Assembly: GCA_012729785.1 (NCBI GenBank)
Contig: JAAYCL010000037.1
Location: forward strand, 1-64,000
Source: Chlamydiota bacterium
Lineage (GTDB): Bacteria > Auribacterota > Tritonobacteria > UBA1439
DNA: 64,000 bases
Direction of reading: 5' to 3'
In this document: piece after piece, positions 10,298 to 56,334 of the stretch
Layout of the letters: each line of letters starts with the position of its first letter
How positions within the stretch are numbered: the first letter of the stretch is position 1
Position numbers and translations under genes: made by a program
The notes under the pieces: generated by a model
What the model saw: only the letters and a program-made list of their open reading frames with translations
Told to the model about the DNA's origin: nothing
The model's database searches: none

Positions 10298-10768
10298 TCA
10301 GCGGTACGGCTCGATCGAGAGGATCCTGAACCGGCGCGTCCCGCCCGGCGTCTCCACCGGGAACTCCTCCGAGACCTTCCGCGCGATCATCCCGCGCGCC
10401 AGCGGGCTCTCGAACGAGATGATCCCGCGGGAGAGGTCCGCATCGGCGGGGCCGAGGATGCGGTACTCGATCTCCTCCCCGGCGTCCAGGTCGAGGAGGC
10501 GGATCCGCGTGCCGAGGGAGACGGCGTCGCCGCGGATCTGGAGGTCCTCGATGAGGCGCGTCTCCGCGAGCTGGACGGTGATCTGCTCGAGGCGCGCGCC
10601 GAGCAGCATCAGCCGGTCGCGGGCGGCCTCGTACCCCGCGTTTTCGCGCAGGTCGCCCTGCTGCGCCGCCTCCAGCTTCTCCCTGCTGACCTTCGGGATC
10701 TCGACCTCGCGCAGCCGTTTGGCCTCCGCGGTCAGGCGCGCATGCGATGCCTTCGTCATGTAGTTCAT
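10298..10768 (-). CDS. GreA/GreB-family transcription cleavage factor
   Basis: This 156-residue protein stimulates RNA cleavage by backtracked RNA polymerase. The N-terminal coiled coil (residues about 1-75) carries the conserved tip and motif GDLRENAGYEAARD (GDLxENAxYxxA in GreA). The C-terminal FKBP-like domain (80-156) has LGTRIRLLDLDAGEEIEYR and SPLARGMIARKVSE, matching the family SPLGxALLGxxxGD block with variation. Two starts are possible, 10768 (MNYMTK) and 10759 (MTK). Neither has a Shine-Dalgarno, and the -10 box lies 8 nt before 10768, which favours a leaderless start there. It converges with corA. Confidence 0.85.
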   Translation of the reverse strand: MNYMTKASHARLTAEAKRLREVEIPKVSREKLEAAQQGDLRENAGYEAARDRLMLLGARLEQITVQLAETRLIEDLQIRGDAVSLGTRIRLLDLDAGEEIEYRILGPADADLSRGIISFESPLARGMIARKVSEEFPVETPGGTRRFRILSIEPYR

Positions 10769-10776
10769 CGGCGTAT

Positions 10777-10805
10777 AGTATAGACGATGCGCGCAACCCG
10801 TTCCA
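10777..10805 (-). promoter_or_regulatory. Promoter of the greA-like gene, leaderless type
   Basis: On the minus strand TGGAAC (10805-10800), a 17-bp spacer and TATACT (10782-10777) end 8 nt before the ATG at 10768. Confidence 0.65.
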
Positions 10806-11869: not shown

Positions 11870-11898
11870 TTGCCAGGGGCGGCGCGCTGCGCTACACT
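11870..11898 (+). promoter_or_regulatory. Promoter of rlmI, leaderless type
   Basis: TTGCCA (11870-11875), a 17-bp spacer and TACACT (11893-11898) end 7 nt before the ATG at 11906. No Shine-Dalgarno lies between. Confidence 0.8.
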
Positions 11899-11905
11899 AC
11901 GGGCG

Positions 11906-13075
11906 ATGAAGAGGGCCGCCGCGACGCTCAAACGGAAAGGGTTCGCCTGGTACGCGACCGGGCACGCCTGGGTCTATCGGGACGACCTCGCGCGGGTCGA
12001 GAACGCCTCGCCCGGGGACATAGTGGACCTGCTCGATCCGCGCGGCCGGCTCCTCGGGAGGGCGTTCTACGGCGACCGGTCGAAGATCGCCCTTCGCCTT
12101 CTCACGCGAAACGACGAACCGGTCGACGACGCGTTCTTCGAGCGCCGCGTCCGCGAGGCGGTCGCGCGGCGGCGCCCCTTGATGGAGGAGAAAGGGGCGC
12201 TGCGCCTGATCTACTCCGAGGCCGACGGTCTTCCCGGCCTGATCGCCGACCGGTACGCGGACTGGATCGTGCTCCAGTCGCTCATCCCCGGCTCGGACTC
12301 CCGCGTCGGCCTCTTCGCCTCCATCCTCCGCGCGCTCCTGGACCCGAAGGGGATCGTCCTCCGCAACGACGCGAGCGCCCGCGCGCTCGAGGGGCTCCCG
12401 CTCGAGAGGAAGGTCCTCACGGGCGACCTCCGCGGACCCGTCGAGGTCGTCGAAGGCGACATCAGGTACCTCGCCGACATTCTCAACGGCCACAAGACGG
12501 GCGCCTATCTCGACCAGCGGGAACACAGGGAACTCGTCGGCCGCCTCGCCCGCGGGAAGGCGCTCGACTGCTTCTGCTACCAGGGGCACTTCGCCCTGCA
12601 CTGCGCGCAGCGGGCGGAGGCGGTGACCGCGCTCGAGTCCTCCCGCGAAGCGATCGCCGCGATGGAGAAGAATATCGCCCTGAACGGCTTCTCGAACGTC
12701 ACCCCCGTCGAGGGCAACGCCTTCGACCTCCTGCGGGCGTGGCAGAGGGAGAGGAAGCGGTTCGACACGATCGTCGTCGATCCGCCGCCGCTGGCGCGGA
12801 AGAAGGCCCACGCGGCCGACGCGATGCGCGGCTACAAGGAGATCAACCTCCGGGCGATGCATCTGCTCGCCCCCGGCGGGATCCTCGCCTCCTTCTGCTG
12901 CTCGCACAACATCCCGCCGGACCTTTTCGGGGAGATCCTGCGCGCGGCCGCCGCCGACGCCTGCTGCTCCTTCCGCGTGCTGCACGCGCTCGGCCAGCCC
13001 CCGGATCATCCGGTCCTCCTCAACGTCCCCGAGACGGCGTACCTCAAGGGGCTGGTCCTGGAAAAGATCTCCTGA
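11906..13075 (+). CDS. rlmI: RlmI-family 23S rRNA (cytosine-C5) methyltransferase
   Basis: This 389-residue SAM-dependent enzyme belongs to the class I RlmI group, which methylates C1962 of 23S rRNA in E. coli. A PUA RNA-binding domain forms the first 75 residues (GHAWVYRDDLARVENASPGD). A central EEHEH-like subdomain follows (LIYSEADGLPGLIADRYAD). The Rossmann methyltransferase domain begins at about residue 195 with TGAYLDQREHR and motif I ALDCFCYQGHFALHC, and has motif IV VVDPPPLAR. The first base of the gene lies about where transcription should start, so the mRNA is predicted to be leaderless. Confidence 0.88.
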   Translation: MKRAAATLKRKGFAWYATGHAWVYRDDLARVENASPGDIVDLLDPRGRLLGRAFYGDRSKIALRLLTRNDEPVDDAFFERRVREAVARRRPLMEEKGALRLIYSEADGLPGLIADRYADWIVLQSLIPGSDSRVGLFASILRALLDPKGIVLRNDASARALEGLPLERKVLTGDLRGPVEVVEGDIRYLADILNGHKTGAYLDQREHRELVGRLARGKALDCFCYQGHFALHCAQRAEAVTALESSREAIAAMEKNIALNGFSNVTPVEGNAFDLLRAWQRERKRFDTIVVDPPPLARKKAHAADAMRGYKEINLRAMHLLAPGGILASFCCSHNIPPDLFGEILRAAAADACCSFRVLHALGQPPDHPVLLNVPETAYLKGLVLEKIS

Positions 13076-17791: not shown

Positions 17792-18127
17792 TCACGCCTT
17801 CTTCTTCGAGCCGAAACGCCCCTTGGCGTCCGCCGGGCCGGCGCCCTCGGTCTCGAGCACCATCTCGATCGCCTTCACCGGGCAGATGTGCGCGCAGATG
17901 CCGCAGCCCTTGCAATGGTCGTAGTCGTAGCCGGCCATCGTCCCCTCTTCGACGTCGATGCAGCAGTCGGGGCAGAGGAGCCAGCACTGGAGGCAGTCGA
18001 TGCATTTGCCCTTGTCGACGCGGGGACGGTACGTCCTCCAGCCGCCGGTCACGTACTTGACCGCGTTCCCGGCCTCCAGGATGAGCCCGCCCGGCGGAAG
18101 CTCCCGGGACCCCTTCTCGTCAGCCAT
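17792..18127 (-). CDS. porD: Pyruvate:ferredoxin oxidoreductase, delta (ferredoxin-like) subunit
   Basis: This 111-residue subunit binds two [4Fe-4S] clusters and passes electrons to ferredoxin. The two cluster motifs are KCIDCLQCWLLCPDCC (about 42-57) and HCKGCGICAHICPVKAI (about 72-88). The first has the usual C-x2-C-x2-C-x3-CP. It overlaps the end of porC by 8 bp. Confidence 0.92.
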   Translation of the reverse strand: MADEKGSRELPPGGLILEAGNAVKYVTGGWRTYRPRVDKGKCIDCLQCWLLCPDCCIDVEEGTMAGYDYDHCKGCGICAHICPVKAIEMVLETEGAGPADAKGRFGSKKKA

Positions 18128-18686
18128 CGCACTTCACCTCGGCATAGGCGCGCCGTATCGCCCGCAGGTTGCCGTCGATCGTCTTTTGATCGAACTTGCG
18201 CGAGAACTCGCGCGTGACCCCCGCGATGAGCTCCTCGACGCCGAGGACCCCGGTCACCTTGAGGAGCGCCCCGACCATCGGCATGTTCGGTATCGGACGC
18301 CCGATCTCGTCGAGGGCGATCGTGGTGGCGTCGACCGTCCAGATCCTGCCCCGGCAGAGGCCGGCGAACGCGGAGGCGTTGTTTTTGGTATTGATGATCA
18401 CCGACCCGCCCTCGGCGAGCCCCTCGCAGACGTCCTCGGGGCCGATCAGACTCTCGTCCAGGACGAGGATCACGGTGGGGTGGTAGATGGAGCAGTGCTC
18501 GCGGATCTTGTCGGAGCTGATCCGGGTGAACCCCTTCATCGGGGCGCCGGAACGCTCCGGGCCGTACTCGGGGAACCCCTGCCCGTACTTGCCGCTGTGG
18601 ATGGCGACGACCGCGACGAACTCGCAGGCGGTCTTCACCCCCTGCCCCCCGCGTCCGTGCCACCTGATTTCAGTCAGCGTGCCCAT
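18120..18686 (-). CDS. porC: Pyruvate:ferredoxin oxidoreductase, gamma subunit
   Basis: This 188-residue subunit binds CoA-related chemistry in the complex. The family opening IRWHGRGGQGVKTACEF and YGPERSGAPMKGFTRIS are intact, and the end has KTIDGNLRAIRRAYAEVK. The start may be ATG 18686 or GTG 18689. Neither has a Shine-Dalgarno, and the -10 box ends 6 nt before the GTG, so a leaderless message beginning near 18689 is expected. It is the first gene of the por operon (C-D-A-B and the small HicB-like gene). Confidence 0.88.
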   Translation of the reverse strand: MGTLTEIRWHGRGGQGVKTACEFVAVVAIHSGKYGQGFPEYGPERSGAPMKGFTRISSDKIREHCSIYHPTVILVLDESLIGPEDVCEGLAEGGSVIINTKNNASAFAGLCRGRIWTVDATTIALDEIGRPIPNMPMVGALLKVTGVLGVEELIAGVTREFSRKFDQKTIDGNLRAIRRAYAEVKCDG

Positions 18687-18695
18687 CACGGGTGC

Positions 18696-18724
18696 ATGGT
18701 AGCACAGGGCATGGGCGAAGGCAA
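18696..18724 (-). promoter_or_regulatory. Promoter of the por operon, leaderless type
   Basis: On the minus strand TTGCCT (18724-18719), a 17-bp spacer and TACCAT (18701-18696) end 6 nt before GTG 18689. Confidence 0.7.
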
Positions 18725-37127: not shown

Positions 37128-37163
37128 GGCGGTCCCGCGGTGGCCGGGGGGCGCGCGATCTGG

Positions 37164-37169
37164 TATGAT
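37164..37169 (+). promoter_or_regulatory. Internal -10 box before the pseF-type gene
   Basis: TATGAT ends 6 nt before ATG 37176, and no Shine-Dalgarno intervenes, as in the other leaderless promoters of this window. The -35 is poor (TGGCCG with a 17-bp spacer). It would let the second half of the pse genes be transcribed on their own. Confidence 0.45.
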
Positions 37170-37175
37170 GCGGCC

Positions 37176-37934
37176 ATGCAGCGCGACGGTTCCGGCGCGG
37201 AGATCCGCGTCGTGGCGATCATCCAGGCGCACATGGCGAGCACCCGCCTGCCCGGCAAGGTCCTGATGGATATCGTCGGGCGGACGATGCTGGCGCGCAC
37301 CGTGGAGAGGACCCGCCGGGCGGAGCGCCTCGACGAGGTTGTCGTGGCGACGACGACCGCCCCCGCCGACGACGCGATCGTCGCCGAATGCGGCCGGCTG
37401 GGCGTCCCCGCGTTCCGGGGCTCCGAGGAGGACGTCCTCGACCGGCACTGCCGGGCGGCGCGCGCGCACTGCGCTGACGCGGTCGCCCGCGTCACCTCCG
37501 ACTGCCCGCTGATCGACCCGGGCCTGATCGACCGCGTCGTCGGGGCGTTCCTGGAGAAGCGGCCGGACTACGCGGGCAACTCGCTCCGCCCCGCCTACCC
37601 GGTCGGACTCGGCGTGGGCGTGGCGTCCATGGCGGCGCTCGAGATGGCGTGGCGCGAGGCGCGGGAGCGGCACGAGCGCGTACACGTGATGCCGTACCTC
37701 TACGGGCACCCGGAGCGCTTCACCCTCCTCTCCGTGGAGGGGGAGGAGGACCTGAGCGGCCACCGCTGGACGGTGGACACGGCGGAGGACTTGGCGTTCG
37801 TGCGGGCGGTGTACGAGCGCCTGGGGAGCGACGGTCGCTTCGGCTGGCGCGACGTCCTCGCCCTCGTCGAGCGGGAGCCCCGGCTCGCCGAGCTCAACCG
37901 CCACGTGCGGCAGAAGACGCTGAGGGAGTGCTGA
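37176..37934 (+). CDS. pseF: SpsF/PseF-type cytidylyltransferase
   Basis: This 252-residue enzyme probably activates pseudaminic acid with CTP. It opens VVAIIQAHMASTRLPGKVLM, the SpsF/KdsB-like pyrophosphorylase signature, then VVVATTTAPADDAIVAECGR, GSEEDVLDRHCRAA and VTSDCPLIDPGLIDRVV with the metal-binding Asp. NSLRPAYPVGLGVGVASMAA and WTVDTAEDLAFVRAVYERLG are typical SpsF blocks. The assignment to PseF function rests on its place between pseC and pseG, as all other pathway steps are present. Confidence 0.8.
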   Translation: MQRDGSGAEIRVVAIIQAHMASTRLPGKVLMDIVGRTMLARTVERTRRAERLDEVVVATTTAPADDAIVAECGRLGVPAFRGSEEDVLDRHCRAARAHCADAVARVTSDCPLIDPGLIDRVVGAFLEKRPDYAGNSLRPAYPVGLGVGVASMAALEMAWREARERHERVHVMPYLYGHPERFTLLSVEGEEDLSGHRWTVDTAEDLAFVRAVYERLGSDGRFGWRDVLALVEREPRLAELNRHVRQKTLREC

Positions 37935-43830: not shown

Positions 43831-44937
43831 ATGAACCCCAAGATCACCGTGGTAATCCCCTGCTACAACCATGGCGCCTTCCTCGATGAGGCGGTGAACT
43901 CCGTCCTGGCGCAGACGATGCAGGATTTCGAGATCGTCGTCGTCGACGACGGCTCCACGGACGAGGAGACCGCGCGGGTACTCCGCGACAGCCGATGGCC
44001 CAAGACTGTCGTGTACAGGACGGAGAACCGGGGACCGTCTGCCGCGCGGAACACGGGGATCCGGAGGTCAGCCGGAGAGTACCTCTGCTGCCTCGACGCC
44101 GACGATCTGCTGGAGCCGACGTGTCTCGAGAAGACCTCCCGCCTGCTGGACGAGGAGCCGGACGTGGGGATCGCCGGCTTCTGGTACCGGACATTCGGGG
44201 AGGAGGAGGCGGAACGGACGCCCGCGGGCTGCACGCTCGAGGATATCCTGGGTGCGTGCATCCTGCGCCCAACCGCGCTCTTCCGCCGCGAGGCATGGAA
44301 CAAGAGCGGGGGCTTCGACGAGCGGTTTAAGAGCGGCTACGAGGATTGGGACTTCTGGATAGGCGTGATGGAACGGGGCTGGCGCGCCCGCATCATCCCG
44401 GAATTCCTCTTCCGCCAGCGCGTACAAGAGGGGTCGCGCAACACGGAGAGCGACAGGCCTGAGGTCCGCGCCCGGTTCATGGAGGAGATGATCCGGAAGC
44501 ACGAAGCGGTCTACCGGGAACACGCGATCCCCGCGCTCATGCAGAGGGAGTCCCTCATCGGGGAGCTCAGGGACTGGACCAGGCAGCAGGACGAGGCGAA
44601 ACGCTGGTACCTGGCCCGGAGCGCCGAGCACGAACGGCGCATCGCCCGCCTCGACGCCGAGCTGGAGCTGCAGGCCGGCGAGATGCAGGCCCTTCAGCAG
44701 GAGTCGGCGGGACTGGAACGGAGATACGCCGCACACGATGCGTCGCTCGAGGCCGTCCGGCGGGCGATTGAGGCGCGGGAAGAAGAGCTCCGCAGTATGC
44801 GCTCCTCCCGGGAATGGAGACTCGGCCGCGCCTTCCAGGAGGCGAAGCGCTCCCCCTGCGCGGCCCTCCTCCTGCCGTTTCGCGCGCTGCGTTTCGGCCT
44901 CGGCCGGCGCGGCGATGAACGCGCGGAGGGCCGATGA
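43831..44937 (+). CDS. GT2-family glycosyltransferase with coiled-coil tail
   Basis: This 368-residue enzyme begins ITVVIPCYNHGAFLDEAVNS and has VVVDDGSTDEETARVL, RGPSAARNTGIRRSAGEYLC, the DxD as CLDADDLLEPTCLEKT and FKSGYEDWDFWIGVMERGW. A coiled coil runs from about residue 245 to 320, then SREWRLGRAFQEAKRSP and a short basic end. AAGGAAAAGG precedes the start. It is a close relative of the first domain of the next protein, so the two may stem from a tandem duplication. Confidence 0.87.
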   Translation: MNPKITVVIPCYNHGAFLDEAVNSVLAQTMQDFEIVVVDDGSTDEETARVLRDSRWPKTVVYRTENRGPSAARNTGIRRSAGEYLCCLDADDLLEPTCLEKTSRLLDEEPDVGIAGFWYRTFGEEEAERTPAGCTLEDILGACILRPTALFRREAWNKSGGFDERFKSGYEDWDFWIGVMERGWRARIIPEFLFRQRVQEGSRNTESDRPEVRARFMEEMIRKHEAVYREHAIPALMQRESLIGELRDWTRQQDEAKRWYLARSAEHERRIARLDAELELQAGEMQALQQESAGLERRYAAHDASLEAVRRAIEAREEELRSMRSSREWRLGRAFQEAKRSPCAALLLPFRALRFGLGRRGDERAEGR

Positions 44938-47900
44938 GCACGCCGCCCGGAACCCCGTCGATACCGCCTCTTCCCTGTCCCGGTGAGGACGCGCCCGCCA
45001 TGGACCGCCGGGTCGACCGCGGCCGCGCGCCCCACCCCCTTTCTTCCGCGGGGTACCCGCGGGTTTCCGTGGTGATCCCCTGCTTCAATCTCGGCCGCTG
45101 GCTCGACGAGGCGGTCGAGAGCGTCCTGCGTCAGACCGTTCAAGAAACCGAGATCGTCGTCGTCGACGACGGCTCGACCGACGCGCAGACCGTCCGGCTC
45201 CTCTCCGGGTACCGGAAGCCCCGGACCACGGTGCTCCGCGGCCCGAACCGGGGCCTGCCCGCGGCGAGGAACCTCGGGATCGCGCGCGCGCGCCCCCCCC
45301 TCGTGATGTGCCTCGACGCCGACGACATCCTCGAACCCACCTGCATCGAACGCGCCGCGCGGACCCTCGACGAGGAACCGACCGTTTCCATCGCGAGCTT
45401 CTGGCTCCGCGCCTTCGGCGACGACGCGTGGGACTACACCCCCGTCGAGTGCACGCTCCGGGATATCCTGGTGGAGAACAAGATCTGCTGCTGCGCGATG
45501 TTCAGGCGGTCGATGTGGGAGGAGATCGCCGGATACGACGAGGCATTCACACGGGGATACGAGGACTGGGAGTTCTGGATACGGGCCCTCGGCCGCGGGC
45601 ACCGCGTCCGGATCATCCCCGAGATCCTGTTCCGGTACAGGATCCGCGAGGGGTCGATGCGCAAGGGCAGCGACCGGCCCGAAAACCGCGCGCCGATCAT
45701 GCGGGCGCTCATCGAGAAGCACGCCGATCTGTTCCGGCAAAACGTGCTTCCGGCCCTCATCGGCAGGGAGAGGATCGTCGGGGAGTTAAAGGACTTCGCG
45801 CGGCAGCAGGACGAGGCGAAGCGGTGGTTCCTGTCCCGCGATCTGGAGCACCAGAGGCGAATTGCGCAGCTCGAGGAGGATGGACAACGGCTGGCCGGCG
45901 AGGCGCGAGACCTCCGGGAGAGAATCGCGCGCCGGAAGGAAGAACTCTCCGCGCAGGAGGAACGGCTGTCGCGCCTGCGCGAAACCCTCGATCGGAGGGA
46001 GCACGAGTTCCGCGCGATCGTCGGATCCAAGGCGTGGAAGCTCGGCTGCGCCTTCCGGGAGGCCAAGCGCTCCCCGCGGGCGGCCCTTCTCCTGCCGCTG
46101 CGTCTCGCCGACTTCGCGTGCCCGGACTGCATCAAGCGCTTCGTCGGAAAAATGCTCCTGATTCCCCCCGGGGAACCGGTGCGGAAAGGCTGGTACCTGT
46201 TCCCGCACCGGTTTTTCGACCGGGCCCTGCCGCCTTCGGTGAAGGCGCGGTTCCCGACGTGGCCGCGCAACGCGGCCCGTGCCGTCTTCCGGACCACGGA
46301 CGAGCGCCTCTTCCGCCAGAAGAGGTGGGACGGCCCGCTGGTCACCGTGGTGATCCCCTGCTACAACTACGGCCGGTTCATCGACGAGGCGATAAAGAGC
46401 GTGCGCGCGCAGACCTTCTCGAACCACGAAATCATCATCGTGGACGACGGCTCCACGGATCCGTTCACCGTCCAGAAGCTCGCGGAGGTGGAGCGGCGCG
46501 CCCTCCCCGGCGTGCGGCTGATCCGCCAGACAAACGCGGGGGTGTCCGCCGCGAGGAACCGGGCGATCGAGAAGGCGCGCGGAAAGTATATCTGCTGCCT
46601 GGACGCCGACGATCTCCTCGATCCGTCCTACCTCGAGAAGTGCCTGCTTGTCTTGGAGAGCCGGAACCTGGACCTGTGCTATTCCCACGTGCGGATATTC
46701 GGGGACGAAACCGGCTCCTGGGAGACCGGCGCATTCGACCTCGCGCGGCTTCTGCGGGAGAACTGCGTCTGCACGGCCGCGGTCTTCACCCGAAAGATCT
46801 GGCGGAAGGCGGGCGGATTCAAGGCCGTCATGAGCCGCGGGTGGGAGGACTGGGACTTCTGGATCGCCGTCGCCGCGGCGGGGGGGCGCGGCGGCGTCCT
46901 CCCCGAGCAGCTGTTCCTGTACCGGCGGCACGGGGAGACTCGCGACGTCGTGGCCGCCGCCCGGCACGCGGACGCGCTCTGGACGCAGATCAGAGCCAAT
47001 CACAAGGCGCTCTACGAAAGCCGGGTGAAATCCCCGCGGAAGAGGAACTTGGTCGTGCAGGACCCGTTCGTCAATCTGTGGGGCGGCCTCTCCTCACCCT
47101 CGGAGGAAGATCGGTCTCGGGGCGTCCTCTTCCTGATCCCCTGGATGGTGCTCGGCGGGGCGGAGTCCATCCTCTGCGGCATCGCCGGAGCGCTCCGGAA
47201 GGCGGGGGGCGCGCGGGTGCATATCGTCGCCACAGACCGGCCCCTCCTCTCGATGGGCGACTCCTCGGACGAATTCAGGCGGATCACCCCGCATCTCTAC
47301 CGGCTCCCCGACCTGCTCCCGGAGCGGCTCTGGTACGACTACCTCGAGTCGTACATCCGCCATCGCGCGATCGACACCCTGTTCGTATGCGGGTGCAGGT
47401 TCATCTACCCGCACCTCGCGCGGCTCAAGGCGCGGTTCCCGAAGCTGCGCGTGGTGGACCAGATCTTCAACGACTCCCCGATGGGACACGTGGAGAACAA
47501 CCGGAAGTACGTACGGTGGATCGACCTCACGTTCATCGTCGCGGAGAAGCTTCGGCGCTCCATCCTCTCGCGCTTCGGCGGCGACCCGGCGCGGTTGCGG
47601 ACGCTCTATCACGGGGCAAACACGGCCCTGTTCGATCCCGCACGCATCGACAAGGCGGAGGCCCGGGCGCAATTCGATCTGCCGTCGGACAAGAAGATCA
47701 TTCTGTACGTCGGGCGCCTCTCGGTGGAAAAGAACCCGCTCCTCTTCGTCGAGCTTGCCGCCGCCCTTCGAGAGGATCGAAACCTGCGCTTTGTCATGGC
47801 AGGGGACGGGCCGCTCCGCGACGAAACGGTTGCGCGGGTGCGGAAACTCCATCTCGACAACCTCCTGCTCTTCGGCATCGTCCCCCCGAAAGAGATGCCG

Positions 47901-49073
47901 GCGCTCACCCGCGCGTCGGACCTCCTCGTCGTCACCTCCCTGACCGAGGGGGTTCCGTTGACGATCTTCGAGGCGCTCGCGATGAACGTGCCGGTGGTGG
48001 CCTCGGACGTGGGCGGCATCTCCGACGTCGTTCGGGAAGGGGTGCACGGCTTCCTCTTCCGTGACGGCGACTTGGCGGGGTGCGTCGATAAGGTCCGCAG
48101 GGCCCTGGGGCACCGTTTCGGGGACCTGCGGACGGAAGCGGTGGGGCGCTACGAACTGCGCGACGTCTACGCCCGCTATTGCGAGATTCTCCAGGACACG
48201 GCCACCCCCCCTGTCAGGGCGCTGCCGCTATCCGCGGCGCGGCGCAGCCCCCTTTCTTTCCGCCGCGCGGCCCGCCTCCTCTTCCGGCCCGCGGACAGGC
48301 GGAACGCCCGGCAGGAGAAAGTGGATGGCCCCCTTGTCTCCGTGGTCATCCCCTGCCATAACTATGGGCGGTTCATCGACGAGGCGCTCGGGAGCGTGCT
48401 CGCCCAGACATTCTCCGACTACGAGGTGCTCATCGTCGACGACGGGTCGACCGACCCCGCCACGCTGGAGAAACTCCGCGAGATCGAGGCGAGAAATCTC
48501 CCGCGCGTCACGATCATCCGCCAAGAGAACCAGCGACTCCCCCGCACCCGCAACAACGGAATACGCGCGTCGAGGGGCACCTATATCTGCTGCCTTGACG
48601 CGGACGATCTGATCGAGCCGACGTATCTGCAGAAATGCGTGACGGCTCTCGAAAACGGCGGCCTGGATATCTGCTACAGCCACGTCCGGCTCTTCGGCGA
48701 CGAGGAACGGGTATGGGAGACCGGGGATTTCGACCCCGAGACACTGAAGAGGCAGAACTGCGTCTGCGTGGGCGCGGTGTACAGGAAATCGGCATGGGAG
48801 CAGGCGGGCGGCTACAATCCCGACATGAGTCTCGGCTACGAGGATTGGGATTTCTGGCTCTCGATGCTGGAAAACGGCGCGCAGGGAACGGTCATCCCCG
48901 AGCCGCTTTTTCTCTATCGCAAACACGGCCGGTCGATGATCGACGGGGCGCAGGAGAGACACAAGTTCCTGTGCGCCCAGATTCGGGAGAATCATCCCGC
49001 CCTCTTCGCGGGGAAAGTTTTCCCCCGGGGGACGCGGCGGCGATCCGCGCGGCGACGGACCTTCCCGCGCTGA
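44934..49073 (+). CDS. Four-domain glycosyltransferase (GT2-GT2-GT4-GT2)
   Basis: This 1379-residue protein has four complete glycosyltransferase domains. Domain 1 (about 43-290, GT2) has VSVVIPCFNLGRWLDEAVES and CLDADDILEPTCIE, then a coiled coil and SKAWKLGCAFREAKRSP (about 285-380). Domain 2 (about 468-700, GT2) has VTVVIPCYNYGRFIDEAIKS and CLDADDLLDPSYLEK. Domain 3 (about 728-1090, GT4) has FLIPWMVLGGAESILCGIAG, ILYVGRLSVEKNPLLFVELA and SLTEGVPLTIFEALAMNVPV. Domain 4 (about 1134-1375, GT2) has VSVVIPCHNYGRFIDEALGS. Domains 2 and 4 are near-duplicates. It starts by ATGA overlap. Such fusions can build a repeating unit in order. Confidence 0.88.
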   Translation: MSTPPGTPSIPPLPCPGEDAPAMDRRVDRGRAPHPLSSAGYPRVSVVIPCFNLGRWLDEAVESVLRQTVQETEIVVVDDGSTDAQTVRLLSGYRKPRTTVLRGPNRGLPAARNLGIARARPPLVMCLDADDILEPTCIERAARTLDEEPTVSIASFWLRAFGDDAWDYTPVECTLRDILVENKICCCAMFRRSMWEEIAGYDEAFTRGYEDWEFWIRALGRGHRVRIIPEILFRYRIREGSMRKGSDRPENRAPIMRALIEKHADLFRQNVLPALIGRERIVGELKDFARQQDEAKRWFLSRDLEHQRRIAQLEEDGQRLAGEARDLRERIARRKEELSAQEERLSRLRETLDRREHEFRAIVGSKAWKLGCAFREAKRSPRAALLLPLRLADFACPDCIKRFVGKMLLIPPGEPVRKGWYLFPHRFFDRALPPSVKARFPTWPRNAARAVFRTTDERLFRQKRWDGPLVTVVIPCYNYGRFIDEAIKSVRAQTFSNHEIIIVDDGSTDPFTVQKLAEVERRALPGVRLIRQTNAGVSAARNRAIEKARGKYICCLDADDLLDPSYLEKCLLVLESRNLDLCYSHVRIFGDETGSWETGAFDLARLLRENCVCTAAVFTRKIWRKAGGFKAVMSRGWEDWDFWIAVAAAGGRGGVLPEQLFLYRRHGETRDVVAAARHADALWTQIRANHKALYESRVKSPRKRNLVVQDPFVNLWGGLSSPSEEDRSRGVLFLIPWMVLGGAESILCGIAGALRKAGGARVHIVATDRPLLSMGDSSDEFRRITPHLYRLPDLLPERLWYDYLESYIRHRAIDTLFVCGCRFIYPHLARLKARFPKLRVVDQIFNDSPMGHVENNRKYVRWIDLTFIVAEKLRRSILSRFGGDPARLRTLYHGANTALFDPARIDKAEARAQFDLPSDKKIILYVGRLSVEKNPLLFVELAAALREDRNLRFVMAGDGPLRDETVARVRKLHLDNLLLFGIVPPKEMPALTRASDLLVVTSLTEGVPLTIFEALAMNVPVVASDVGGISDVVREGVHGFLFRDGDLAGCVDKVRRALGHRFGDLRTEAVGRYELRDVYARYCEILQDTATPPVRALPLSAARRSPLSFRRAARLLFRPADRRNARQEKVDGPLVSVVIPCHNYGRFIDEALGSVLAQTFSDYEVLIVDDGSTDPATLEKLREIEARNLPRVTIIRQENQRLPRTRNNGIRASRGTYICCLDADDLIEPTYLQKCVTALENGGLDICYSHVRLFGDEERVWETGDFDPETLKRQNCVCVGAVYRKSAWEQAGGYNPDMSLGYEDWDFWLSMLENGAQGTVIPEPLFLYRKHGRSMIDGAQERHKFLCAQIRENHPALFAGKVFPRGTRRRSARRRTFPR

Positions 49074-53452: not shown

Positions 53453-55042
53453 TCATCCGCCCGGCGCCGACCGGAGGTAGTCCCCGTACGAAGGATAGAC
53501 GGTGATCAGCGGGTCGGAGACGGGGCGGCGTGGCGGACGCTTCACCTCGATCACCGCCGTCTCCTCTTCCCCTCTCCCCTCGCGGAGCGTATCCAGGTCG
53601 AAGGTGATCGGTTGCGGGTAGTGCGCGGCGAGGTATGCCTGGATCGCCCATGGCTGCGCGAAGTCGGGTATCGCGGTGCACCACCACTGTTTGACGTTCA
53701 CGAGAAGCAGATGCGTGCGGCCGCGCCTGACCTGCGAGTCCACCGCCGCCCAGACCTTCCGGTCGTGCTCCTTCTGGGATCGCCAGAGCTCGTTCAAGGC
53801 GTAGCAGTCCAGGAATGCCAGGTACGAGAAGATCAGGAACGCGGCAGCGCATTCCAAGAGGACGCGTCTCCGCGGCAGCGAGGCGAGCGGCAGCGCCGCG
53901 AGGACGGCGAGGGGGACGCCGAACCCGTACAGGTACCTGCTCTGCATCGGGCGCATCCGGGTCATCACACCGTAGGCGACCGGGAGCCAGATGAGCACGA
54001 TCCAGGCCGCGGCGCAGACGGCGACCAGCGCGGCGAGGCGGGCGCGCCCGACCGTGGAGGGCGCGGCGGCGCGGCGCAGGGGGAGGAGGCCCGCGAGGAA
54101 TATAGCGGCGCCCGCAGCCGCGGCCGCCAACGTCCGCCCGGATGGCGGGATGCTGAAGCGGGCGTAGTACCACGTCCGGGGGTTCAGGGAGTAGAGGATT
54201 GTTTTCGCGCAGTTCGAGACGGCCGCCGTGAACAAGGCTGGATCGAGCGCCCCGGGGGGGCGCGTCTGGCCGGGGAATGCAGCCGTATTCGTCGCGACCG
54301 CGGCGAGGTAGACGGCCAAAAGGATGGCGCCGACCGCAAGCGGGACGCCCAGGCGCATACGGTCCCGCAGCAGGCGCGTCGTCGAGGCCCGGGAGGCGAG
54401 GGACGCGAGGAGCAGGATGCACGGGGTGGCGTAGAGCAGCGCCAGTGTCTGCTCCCCCGCGAACTGGGCCAGCGTGAACCACGCGGTCAGTGTCCATACA
54501 TCGAGAAACCTGCGGCGGAGCGGGTTCAGCAACCGGTGGAGATAGAGGAGGTAGAACAGGACGGGGGCGATCTGGAAGAGGGTGTTGACCCAGAAGAGAA
54601 CGTTCTGCCCGGTGGGCATCACGAGGAAGAAGAAGGCGCTGTAGATCGCCAGTCTCTCGTCGAACCGCGCGAGGATCCTGAACAACGCCGCGGCGACCGC
54701 CAGATGGAAGGCGAAATGCAGGAGGAAATGCGGGACGTACCGGTAGCCGAAGGCGAGGTAGGCGAACAGCTTGATGACAAAACTGACGAACTGGATGCGC
54801 ACCCGGTACTGGATGTACTCGTTGTCGACGATCTTGCGCACCGCGCCGAATACGCCGTCCGTGCGCAGCATCGAGGCGTACTCGTTGAAGAAGCTCCAGT
54901 CATCGAGCTTCAGGGTGAGGCAGTCGAGGTTCGCGACGAAGATCGGCAGCATGAGCAGCGCGAGAACCGCCGCGAGCCGGCCAAATCTTACGCCGGCACC
55001 CGGTCGGGGGGCTCGTCCATCCTGCGCGGCTGTGGTGTGCAT
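53453..55042 (-). CDS. Polytopic membrane protein of unknown function (glycosyltransferase-like)
   Basis: This 529-residue protein has about ten hydrophobic segments (for example LAAVLALLMLPIFVANLDCL, YSAFFFLVMPTGQNVLFWV, LALLYATPCILLLASLAS). It resembles GT39- or GtrII-like membrane glycosyltransferases in general layout: an early acidic loop DDWSFFNEYASML between the first helices, and a soluble C-terminus. The start at 55042 lacks a Shine-Dalgarno and lies 6 nt after a -10 box, so it should be leaderless; a TTG 36 nt upstream lies inside the -35 box and is not used. Function unknown. Confidence 0.7.
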   Translation of the reverse strand: MHTTAAQDGRAPRPGAGVRFGRLAAVLALLMLPIFVANLDCLTLKLDDWSFFNEYASMLRTDGVFGAVRKIVDNEYIQYRVRIQFVSFVIKLFAYLAFGYRYVPHFLLHFAFHLAVAAALFRILARFDERLAIYSAFFFLVMPTGQNVLFWVNTLFQIAPVLFYLLYLHRLLNPLRRRFLDVWTLTAWFTLAQFAGEQTLALLYATPCILLLASLASRASTTRLLRDRMRLGVPLAVGAILLAVYLAAVATNTAAFPGQTRPPGALDPALFTAAVSNCAKTILYSLNPRTWYYARFSIPPSGRTLAAAAAGAAIFLAGLLPLRRAAAPSTVGRARLAALVAVCAAAWIVLIWLPVAYGVMTRMRPMQSRYLYGFGVPLAVLAALPLASLPRRRVLLECAAAFLIFSYLAFLDCYALNELWRSQKEHDRKVWAAVDSQVRRGRTHLLLVNVKQWWCTAIPDFAQPWAIQAYLAAHYPQPITFDLDTLREGRGEEETAVIEVKRPPRRPVSDPLITVYPSYGDYLRSAPGG

Positions 55043-55048
55043 GGCCGC

Positions 55049-55078
55049 AGGATACCAAAGCGCAGACGTTGTATGCAA
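55049..55078 (-). promoter_or_regulatory. Promoter of the 53453-55042 gene, leaderless type
   Basis: On the minus strand TTGCAT (55078-55073), an 18-bp spacer and TATCCT (55054-55049) end 6 nt before the ATG at 55042. The -35 lies inside copy 1 of the 130-bp repeat. Confidence 0.65.
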
Positions 55079-55190
55079 TACATTCCTGCGGCATAAGATG
55101 GAACGTTAAACGCCCCGAGCCTCCATCCGGAACCTCCAATCTGTTCGCCGCCCCGCCCGCAAAAAGCTTCCCTCGCGCCGCCGCCTTTGC
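55061..55190 (+). repeat. 130-bp direct repeat, copy 1
   Basis: It begins CGCAGACGTTG and ends CCGCCGCCTTTGC. The second copy at 56205-56334 has the same length and orientation, with roughly 85-90 percent identity by eye. Copy 1 carries the -35 of the promoter at 55049-55078 and ends 3 bp before a nucleotidyltransferase remnant. Confidence 0.85.
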
Positions 55191-55193
55191 CCC

Positions 55194-55352
55194 ATGGATA
55201 TCCCCGACCTGATGGGGACGATGCTCAAGGGCGGCGAAAAGGTGGTATGCGCCCTCCAGGACTGCTTTTGGCTCGACATCGGGCGCGTGGACAACTATCA
55301 GAAAGCGGCGGAGATCTTCAAGAGGAGGAAGAAGGAGTTCATGCCGGTCTGA
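55194..55352 (+). pseudogene. C-terminal remnant of a sugar-phosphate nucleotidyltransferase
   Basis: The 52 codons read DIPDLMGTMLKGGEKVVCAL, FWLDIGRVDNYQKAAEIFK and end KEFMPV. This is the last part of a mannose-1-phosphate guanylyl- or glucose-1-phosphate thymidylyl-type transferase (F-x-M-P-x-L, then Y-W-x-D-I-G-R/T-x-x-x-Y). The catalytic N-terminal 180 or more residues are missing. The break falls at the end of repeat copy 1, which suggests loss by recombination at the repeat. Confidence 0.75.
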
Positions 55353-55395: not shown

Positions 55396-56185
55396 TCAGA
55401 ACGCCTCCTGCGCGGAGAGGCGCGGGGCGTCAAGCCGTATGCGGGCCCCTTCGGGGTCGAGGAACCTGTAGCGGCCGACCCCGAGCCTGCGCAGCATCAC
55501 CTGTGCGCTCACCCCCAGGACCCCGATCCCGTAGCGGCAGCTTCGCGTGAAATTGATGCTGCTCGCCTCCTTGAAATACTTCGTGGGGCAGCTTATCTCG
55601 CCGATCCGGAAGCCGAAGTAGATCGCCTGGGCGAGCATCTGGTTGTCGAAGACGAAGTCGTTGGAGTTCTCGAGGAGGGGAAGGCGCAGCAGTAGCTCGC
55701 GCGTGAACGCCCGGTAGCCGGTGTGGTACTCGGAGAGCTTCTCGCGCATCAGCAGGTTCTGGCAGAGCGTGAGCACGCGGTTGGAGACGTATTTGTATAG
55801 CGGCATCCCGCCCTTCAGCGCCCCGTTCCCGATGATCCGCGACGCGATGACACAGTCGTAGACACCGCTCACGATCATCCCGGCCATCGCCGTCGCGAGC
55901 CTCGGGTCGTACTGATGGGTGCACCATGATGACGATGTCCGCGCCGTTCAAAAGCGCCAGGGTGTAGCAGCTCTTCTGGTTCGCGCCGTAGCCGAGGTTC
56001 CGCCCGTGCACGCAGCTTCTGATCCCGAGCTTGTTCGCCACGGCGAGCGTCTCGTCGGAGGAGTGATCGTCCACGAGCAGGACGTCGTCCACCACGCTCC
56101 GGTCGAGTCCGCGGTAGGTTATCTCGAGGGTCTGGGCGGCGTTGTACGCCGGCATGACGACGATGATTTTCTTCCCGTTCAGCAT
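55396..56185 (-). pseudogene. GT2 (dolichol-phosphate-mannose-synthase-like) glycosyltransferase, frameshifted
   Basis: From ATG 56185 the protein reads KKIIVVMPAYNAAQTLEITY, LLVDDHSSDETLAVANKLG and ADIVIMVHP, then loses the family sequence. It continues in another frame from QYDPRLATAMAGMIVSGVYD through LLLRLPLLENSNDFVFDNQM to the stop at 55396. The break is at about 55916-55920, where the expected H-P-D-Y-Q-Y-D-P has lost the Asp-Tyr codons plus a shift, so the missing length is about 5 nt. Everything else is well conserved, so it is a recent loss or an assembly error. The start is of the leaderless type. Confidence 0.75.
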
Positions 56186-56192
56186 GGCAGTT

Positions 56193-56222
56193 ATGATACA
56201 CCCTCGCAGACGTTGCATGCAA
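56193..56222 (-). promoter_or_regulatory. Promoter of the frameshifted GT2 gene, leaderless type
   Basis: On the minus strand TTGCAT (56222-56217), an 18-bp spacer and TATCAT (56198-56193) end 7 nt before ATG 56185. The -35 lies in repeat copy 2 at the same offset as in copy 1. Confidence 0.7.
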
Positions 56223-56334
56223 TACTATCCTGCGGAATAAGATGGGACGTTAAACGCCCCGAGCCTCCTTACAAAGCTTCCAATCTGTTCGCCGCCGCGC
56301 CCTCAAATAACTTCCCTCGCGCCGCCGCCTTTGC
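56205..56334 (+). repeat. 130-bp direct repeat, copy 2
   Basis: Second copy of the repeat at 55061-55190. Its right end supplies the TGC of the extended -10 of rpsB. The two copies flank the frameshifted GT2 gene and the nucleotidyltransferase remnant. Confidence 0.85.

Follow-up and report, generated by a model that had tools for sequence, protein, structure and literature searches.

Leaderless mRNAs represent a large share of the genes of Mycobacterium and Deinococcus, whereas in the genome considered here they would correspond to about 7% of the recognised promoters. Among bacteria in general, genes led by a TA-like signal were found in 207 of 953 genomes, i.e. they are widespread without being dominant, and orthologues can switch the signal (Zheng et al. 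2011, PMC3160421, according to the parts of that paper used here). Leaderless transcription is predicted in 21.6% of bacterial species by the GeneMarkS-2 work, as recounted in a section of PMC9581028, and the portion of the Caulobacter crescentus study referred to here gives 375 leaderless mRNAs, or 9.6% of CDSs (PMC4117421). As far as these parts of the papers go, the genes described below resemble the TA-led genes of Zheng et al. 2011: some 10 bp ahead of the start lies a TA-like box, a Shine-Dalgarno (SD) sequence is lacking, and orthologues switch. They differ from the positives of that survey (Actinobacteria, Deinococcus-Thermus and others) in belonging to a small phylum and in their low share, and in that the switch is observed with the -10 box retained. 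As in C. crescentus, the leaderless class is a minority beside SD-led genes; unlike the C. crescentus set, which was established from RNA 5' ends and ribosome profiling, ours is predicted from sequence. Apart from Zheng et al. 2011, a search of the literature on leaderless mRNAs in candidate phyla or on leader loss yielded nothing direct.

The window, i.e. the whole 64-kb stretch of DNA that was analysed, contains six genes for which the preliminary description had proposed a promoter separated by 6-8 nt from the start codon and no SD sequence. All six pairs of -35 and -10 boxes are present with the spacers given (Table 1), no SD 4-mer occurs at -20..-4 of five of the genes, and none is visible by eye ahead of the sixth (56185). 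Taken as a set, the boxes and spacers are exact, but the promoters of the genes at 55042 and 56185 are not independent, because a 130-nt duplication holds both of their TTGCAT boxes. In front of the greA-like gene an overlapping TACTAT, 6 nt from the start, fits as -10 box too.

Table 1. Promoter elements, genes and duplicated segments in the window
Feature	Position	Strand	Remarks
rlmI -35 TTGCCA	11870..11875	+	N17 to -10
rlmI -10 TACACT, CGC just before	11893..11898	+	CGCTACACT identical in same-genus G005
rlmI-like 23S rRNA methyltransferase	11906..13075	+	ATG 11906, 7 nt past -10
greA-like gene, -35-like TGGAAC	10800..10805	-	N17 to -10
greA-like gene, -10 TATACT	10777..10782	-	hexamer shared with G005
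greA-like gene	10298..10768	-	ATG 10768, 8 nt past -10
porC -35 TTGCCT	18719..18724	-	N17 to -10
porC -10 TACCAT, TGC before (TGC-TACCAT)	18696..18701	-	
porC	18120..18689	-	GTG 18689 (6 nt) or adjoining in-frame ATG 18686 (9 nt)
CTP_transf_3 gene, -35-like TGGCCG	37141..37146	+	N17 to -10
CTP_transf_3 (cytidylyltransferase) gene, -10 TATGAT	37164..37169	+	
CTP_transf_3 gene	37176..37934	+	ATG 6 nt past -10
Gene at 55042, -35 TTGCAT	55073..55078	-	N18; within duplicated segment 55061-55190
Gene at 55042, -10 TATCCT	55049..55054	-	
Gene at 55042	53453..55042	-	ATG 6 nt past -10
Gene at 56185, -35 TTGCAT	56217..56222	-	N18; within second copy 56205-56334
Gene at 56185, -10 TATCAT	56193..56198	-	
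Gene at 56185, family-2 glycosyltransferase	55396..56185	-	ATG 7 nt past -10
Duplicated segment, copy 1	55061..55190	+	130 nt
Duplicated segment, copy 2	56205..56334	+	88% identical to copy 1

The two copies of the duplicated segment lie 1,144 nt apart, each upstream of one of the two minus-strand genes, and the segment includes TTGCATGCAA or a near copy of it. It was considered as a repeat family and rejected, since the search of the genome gave no further full copy and only a 24-nt piece in contig C39. The gene at 55042 had no match in Pfam or NCBIfam, so that no family was assigned. The glycosyltransferase at 56185 (region 55396-56218, minus strand) consists of two parts in different frames, the change lying between 56185 and 55887; the interrupted frame was not called as one gene, Pfam matches the N-terminus of glycosyltransferase-2, and either a frameshift or an assembly error accounts for the interruption. 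Close by, a short ORF (55194-55352, plus strand) without Pfam match resembles what we take to be the C-terminal remnant of a nucleotidyltransferase. Elsewhere in the window, a plus-strand ORF of 1,379 aa (44934-49073) appears by eye to combine several glycosyltransferase modules in one protein.

For the genome-wide counts, genes were called with a codon-periodic model that places starts by coding potential alone. This gave 640 genes on 765 kb and 973 on 1,164 kb, or 45% of the genome; from these, 572 non-operon genes (gap of 40 nt or more) and 333 operon genes were used. A TANNNT box ends 6-7 nt before the start of 14/572 non-operon genes, compared with 4.62 +/- 2.05 (maximum 12) in 500 shuffles; thus the check put forward in the preliminary description, a comparison of -10 boxes so placed with a shuffled control, showed an excess on 45% of the genome. 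When 398 kb were added, the count of 13 rose by just one, to 14. When the count at 6-7 nt is set against the mean of spacers 0-89, the difference is not significant (P=0.056), because from 20 nt on the leadered promoters rise to a hump about as high; the spike exceeds its neighbouring spacers, not the leadered hump. At operon starts, TANNNT was found at 6-8 nt in 0/333. The accompanying statement that genes inside operons usually carry an SD sequence held only weakly, with an SD 5-mer in 151/333 operon and 220/572 non-operon genes. Among 26 candidate genes, defined by any start codon at 5-8 nt past a promoter (18 ATG, 6 GTG and 2 TTG), none has an SD 5-mer in -16..-4, a zero that is partly forced because the -10 box takes up the place of the SD sequence. 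Such candidates are commoner in the window than elsewhere, five of the 26 falling within its 64 kb of the 1,164 kb analysed.

A promoter model was trained by EM solely on -10 boxes that end at least 18 nt upstream of called starts, with the caveat that the training set may include a few genes whose true start precedes the called one. The learned motif, TTG[A/C]C followed by a gap of 17 (61%) or 18 (21%) nt and TGnTATAMT, fits sigma-70-type promoters, in which -35 and -10 are about 17 nt apart. With a score above 6, matches among the 572 non-operon genes are absent from spacers 0-5, number nine at spacer 6, four at 7 and two at 8, amount to 15 over the 11 positions 9-19, and then rise to a broad hump. 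A near-identical rerun at a threshold of 5.5 gave 16 matches at 6-8 nt, where the rate at neighbouring positions, 0.94 each, predicts 2.8 (Poisson P=5.5e-8); a single match lies at spacer 4. By this measure leaderless-type starts are a minority class, 16 of the 238 recognised promoters (6.7%). A sharp lower edge at spacer 6 would follow if no transcript could begin within the coding sequence. Bacterial transcripts begin 6-8 nt past the -10 box. If the same distance applies here, these sigma-70-like promoters with an extended -10, presumably of the housekeeping type, would have RNA polymerase begin transcription at the A of the initiation codon or some 0-5 nt from it, and ribosomes, probably 70S, would initiate on a 5'-terminal AUG without SD sequence.

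Seven candidates have an orthologue in the available sequence of a genome of the same genus (G005; the source genome is G000): rlmI, porC, greA, and four genes that we take from their protein sequences to be NUDIX-like, AGCS-like, a response regulator and CDP-alcohol-transferase-like. The -10 hexamer is identical in six of the seven. The CDP-alcohol-transferase-like gene has no promoter match in G005 and none comparably placed in four relatives, and is retained as an unconfirmed candidate. When the rlmI, porC, NUDIX-like, AGCS-like and response regulator pairs are aligned, 30/30 positions of the -10 box are identical, together with 12/15 of TGn, 21/30 of the -35 box and 24/67 of the spacer; the 30/30 describes only cases in which the hexamer was found, because the alignment was anchored on it. 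The distance from the -10 box to the start in G000 and G005, respectively, is 7 and 10 nt for rlmI, 6 and 8 for porC, 6 and 6 for the NUDIX-like gene, 7 and 10 for the AGCS-like gene, 7 and 18 for the response regulator, and 8 and 40 for greA. In the G005 greA the same -10 box is followed by a 40-nt stretch with AAGGAG, an SD sequence, before the ATG. The gene is SD-led in G004, G001 and G002 as well, and stands at 9 nt without SD in the family member G003; since four of the five relatives are SD-led, the comparison suggests that greA lost its leader in G000. For rlmI, -10 and ATG are 6 nt apart in G004 and 12 nt in G001, and the gene is SD-led in G002; the AGCS-like gene is SD-led in G004 and G002. 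Among named genomes, a scan with rlmI met with distant matches only, at best 48% identical. At the gene of locus L119, TGCTATCAT is the same in G004, where it precedes a leader with GGAGG. Few orthologues were available in the stretches of G003, G004, G019 (a member of the phylum) and G048. As spacers and leaders differ at the same hexamer, the length of the leader varies around a kept -10 box. Genes may thus lose an SD-bearing leader, or acquire one, as DNA between this box and the start is removed or added.

The spike at 6-8 nt, the lack of matches at 0-5, the trough up to spacer 19 and the frame of the ATG codons speak for the preliminary prediction of leaderless mRNAs, and we consider it highly likely that these promoters would give rise to leaderless or nearly leaderless (ultra-short-leader) mRNAs. 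Alternatively, the promoters could be real but translation begin at codons further downstream, in which case the ATG found at 6-8 nt would be in frame by chance and part of a normal SD leader. As a TANNNT test by frame alone is noisier, the frame was examined with the promoter model in its place (271 matches at 251 genes): an ATG located 6-8 nt past the promoter is open and in frame in 17 cases and out of frame or closed in 4, which argues against chance codons. GTG and TTG at the same distance show no in-frame excess (6 vs 10 and 2 vs 11, in total 8 vs 21), as downstream starts would have it, and the GTG start of porC is unsupported by the frame signal because ATG alone carries it. An in-frame start with SD sequence lies downstream in 6/26 candidates, compared with 56/572 called starts; the other 20 candidates lack one. 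One gene for which a downstream start is probable is that of locus L091, assumed from its protein sequence to be hisG: the G003 orthologue starts 27 nt further in with AGGA, G000 has AAGGAGG before this second start, and hisG is probably leadered. On the other hand, the protein families of rlmI, porC and greA align from within the first 2-13 residues, and in rlmI conservation begins at the ATG itself. As a general account, downstream starts therefore seem unlikely to us.

It is more improbable still that the -10-like hexamers are AT-rich by chance or act in translation, as an AT-rich patch or S1 site would, with transcription starting further upstream. AT-rich patches near starts have indeed been interpreted both as S1 sites and as promoters, according to the relevant part of PMC5397173. 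However, a model that was trained elsewhere and demands a -35 box, a 17-nt gap and TGn still peaks at 6-8 nt and has nothing at 0-5, operon starts are devoid of TANNNT at this distance, the hexamers are kept whereas the spacers have diverged, and in several orthologues an SD leader follows that hexamer. A variant within the favoured explanation is that the messages carry ultra-short leaders of about 2-6 nt, a class with start-site drift, and are not strictly leaderless. The spacers of greA (8 nt in G000, 9 in G003), of rlmI and the AGCS-like gene in G005 (10) and of rlmI in G001 (12) point this way, and because some orthologues have spacers of 10-12 nt, "nearly leaderless" fits as well as "leaderless". 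The modal spacer is exactly 6, and therefore the A of the ATG would be +1; on balance we regard the variant as somewhat unlikely, with a real chance of being correct.

Plain TANNNT at 6-7 nt was counted in other genomes as well. Deinococcus gobiensis P1, the positive control, resembles the source genome in having -10 boxes at this distance (8/127 genes); Cupriavidus has 2/194 and E. coli 0/29. The comparison with Deinococcus and Cupriavidus is one of plain counts, models trained on their stretches having learned no promoter. Among the relatives, the counts are 5/166 in G004, 4/183 in G003, 5/125 in G019 and 12/129 in G048. Promoter models trained on the relatives themselves show a spike in G048 (five matches at 6-8 nt, P=2e-4) and G004 (five, P=0.03), and none at 6-8 nt in G003 and G019.

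A scan of 44 genomes from the phylum, made irrespective of gene positions, finds exact matches to TTG-N17-TGN-TANNNT-Nx-ATG 238 times with x=6, 59 times with x=3 and 103 times with x=14, as compared with 32, 33 and 25 for the reversed-pattern controls. Spacer 6 outnumbers spacer 3 in 34 of the 44 genomes and falls below it in one; some matches, including at least four in G002, belong to a single repeat. For a clostridial order, again with 44 genomes, the counts are 224 at spacer 6 and 135 at spacer 3 (controls 63 and 83). The ratio in the phylum is above the clostridial one (Fisher P=8e-7), and the trait is not special to the phylum because the clostridia, too, show an excess at spacer 6. The most exact spacer-6 promoters in the phylum are found in families f13-f15 (G038-G044), e.g. 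37 in G044 vs 6 at spacer 3. A leaderless-type promoter, TTGACTAAGG..TGATACCGTTCGGACATG, recurs in near-identical form on contigs of G002 (C65, C85, C173 and C211), G001 (C146) and G003 (C94), as might be seen with a gene that is mobile or repeated.

Leaderless starts as such are already known; what is new here is their predicted occurrence in a poorly known phylum. Tentatively, and with the chances slightly against us, we propose that they are old and phylum-wide, single genes flipping between an SD leader and none with the -10 box as anchor. The analysis provides specific gene starts for which gene finders relying on SD sequences may choose the wrong position. In the orthologue pairs of greA, rlmI, porC, the AGCS-like and the NUDIX-like gene, the same -10 box serves leadered and leaderless versions, and because of such pairs the loss or gain of leaders becomes a directly testable question.
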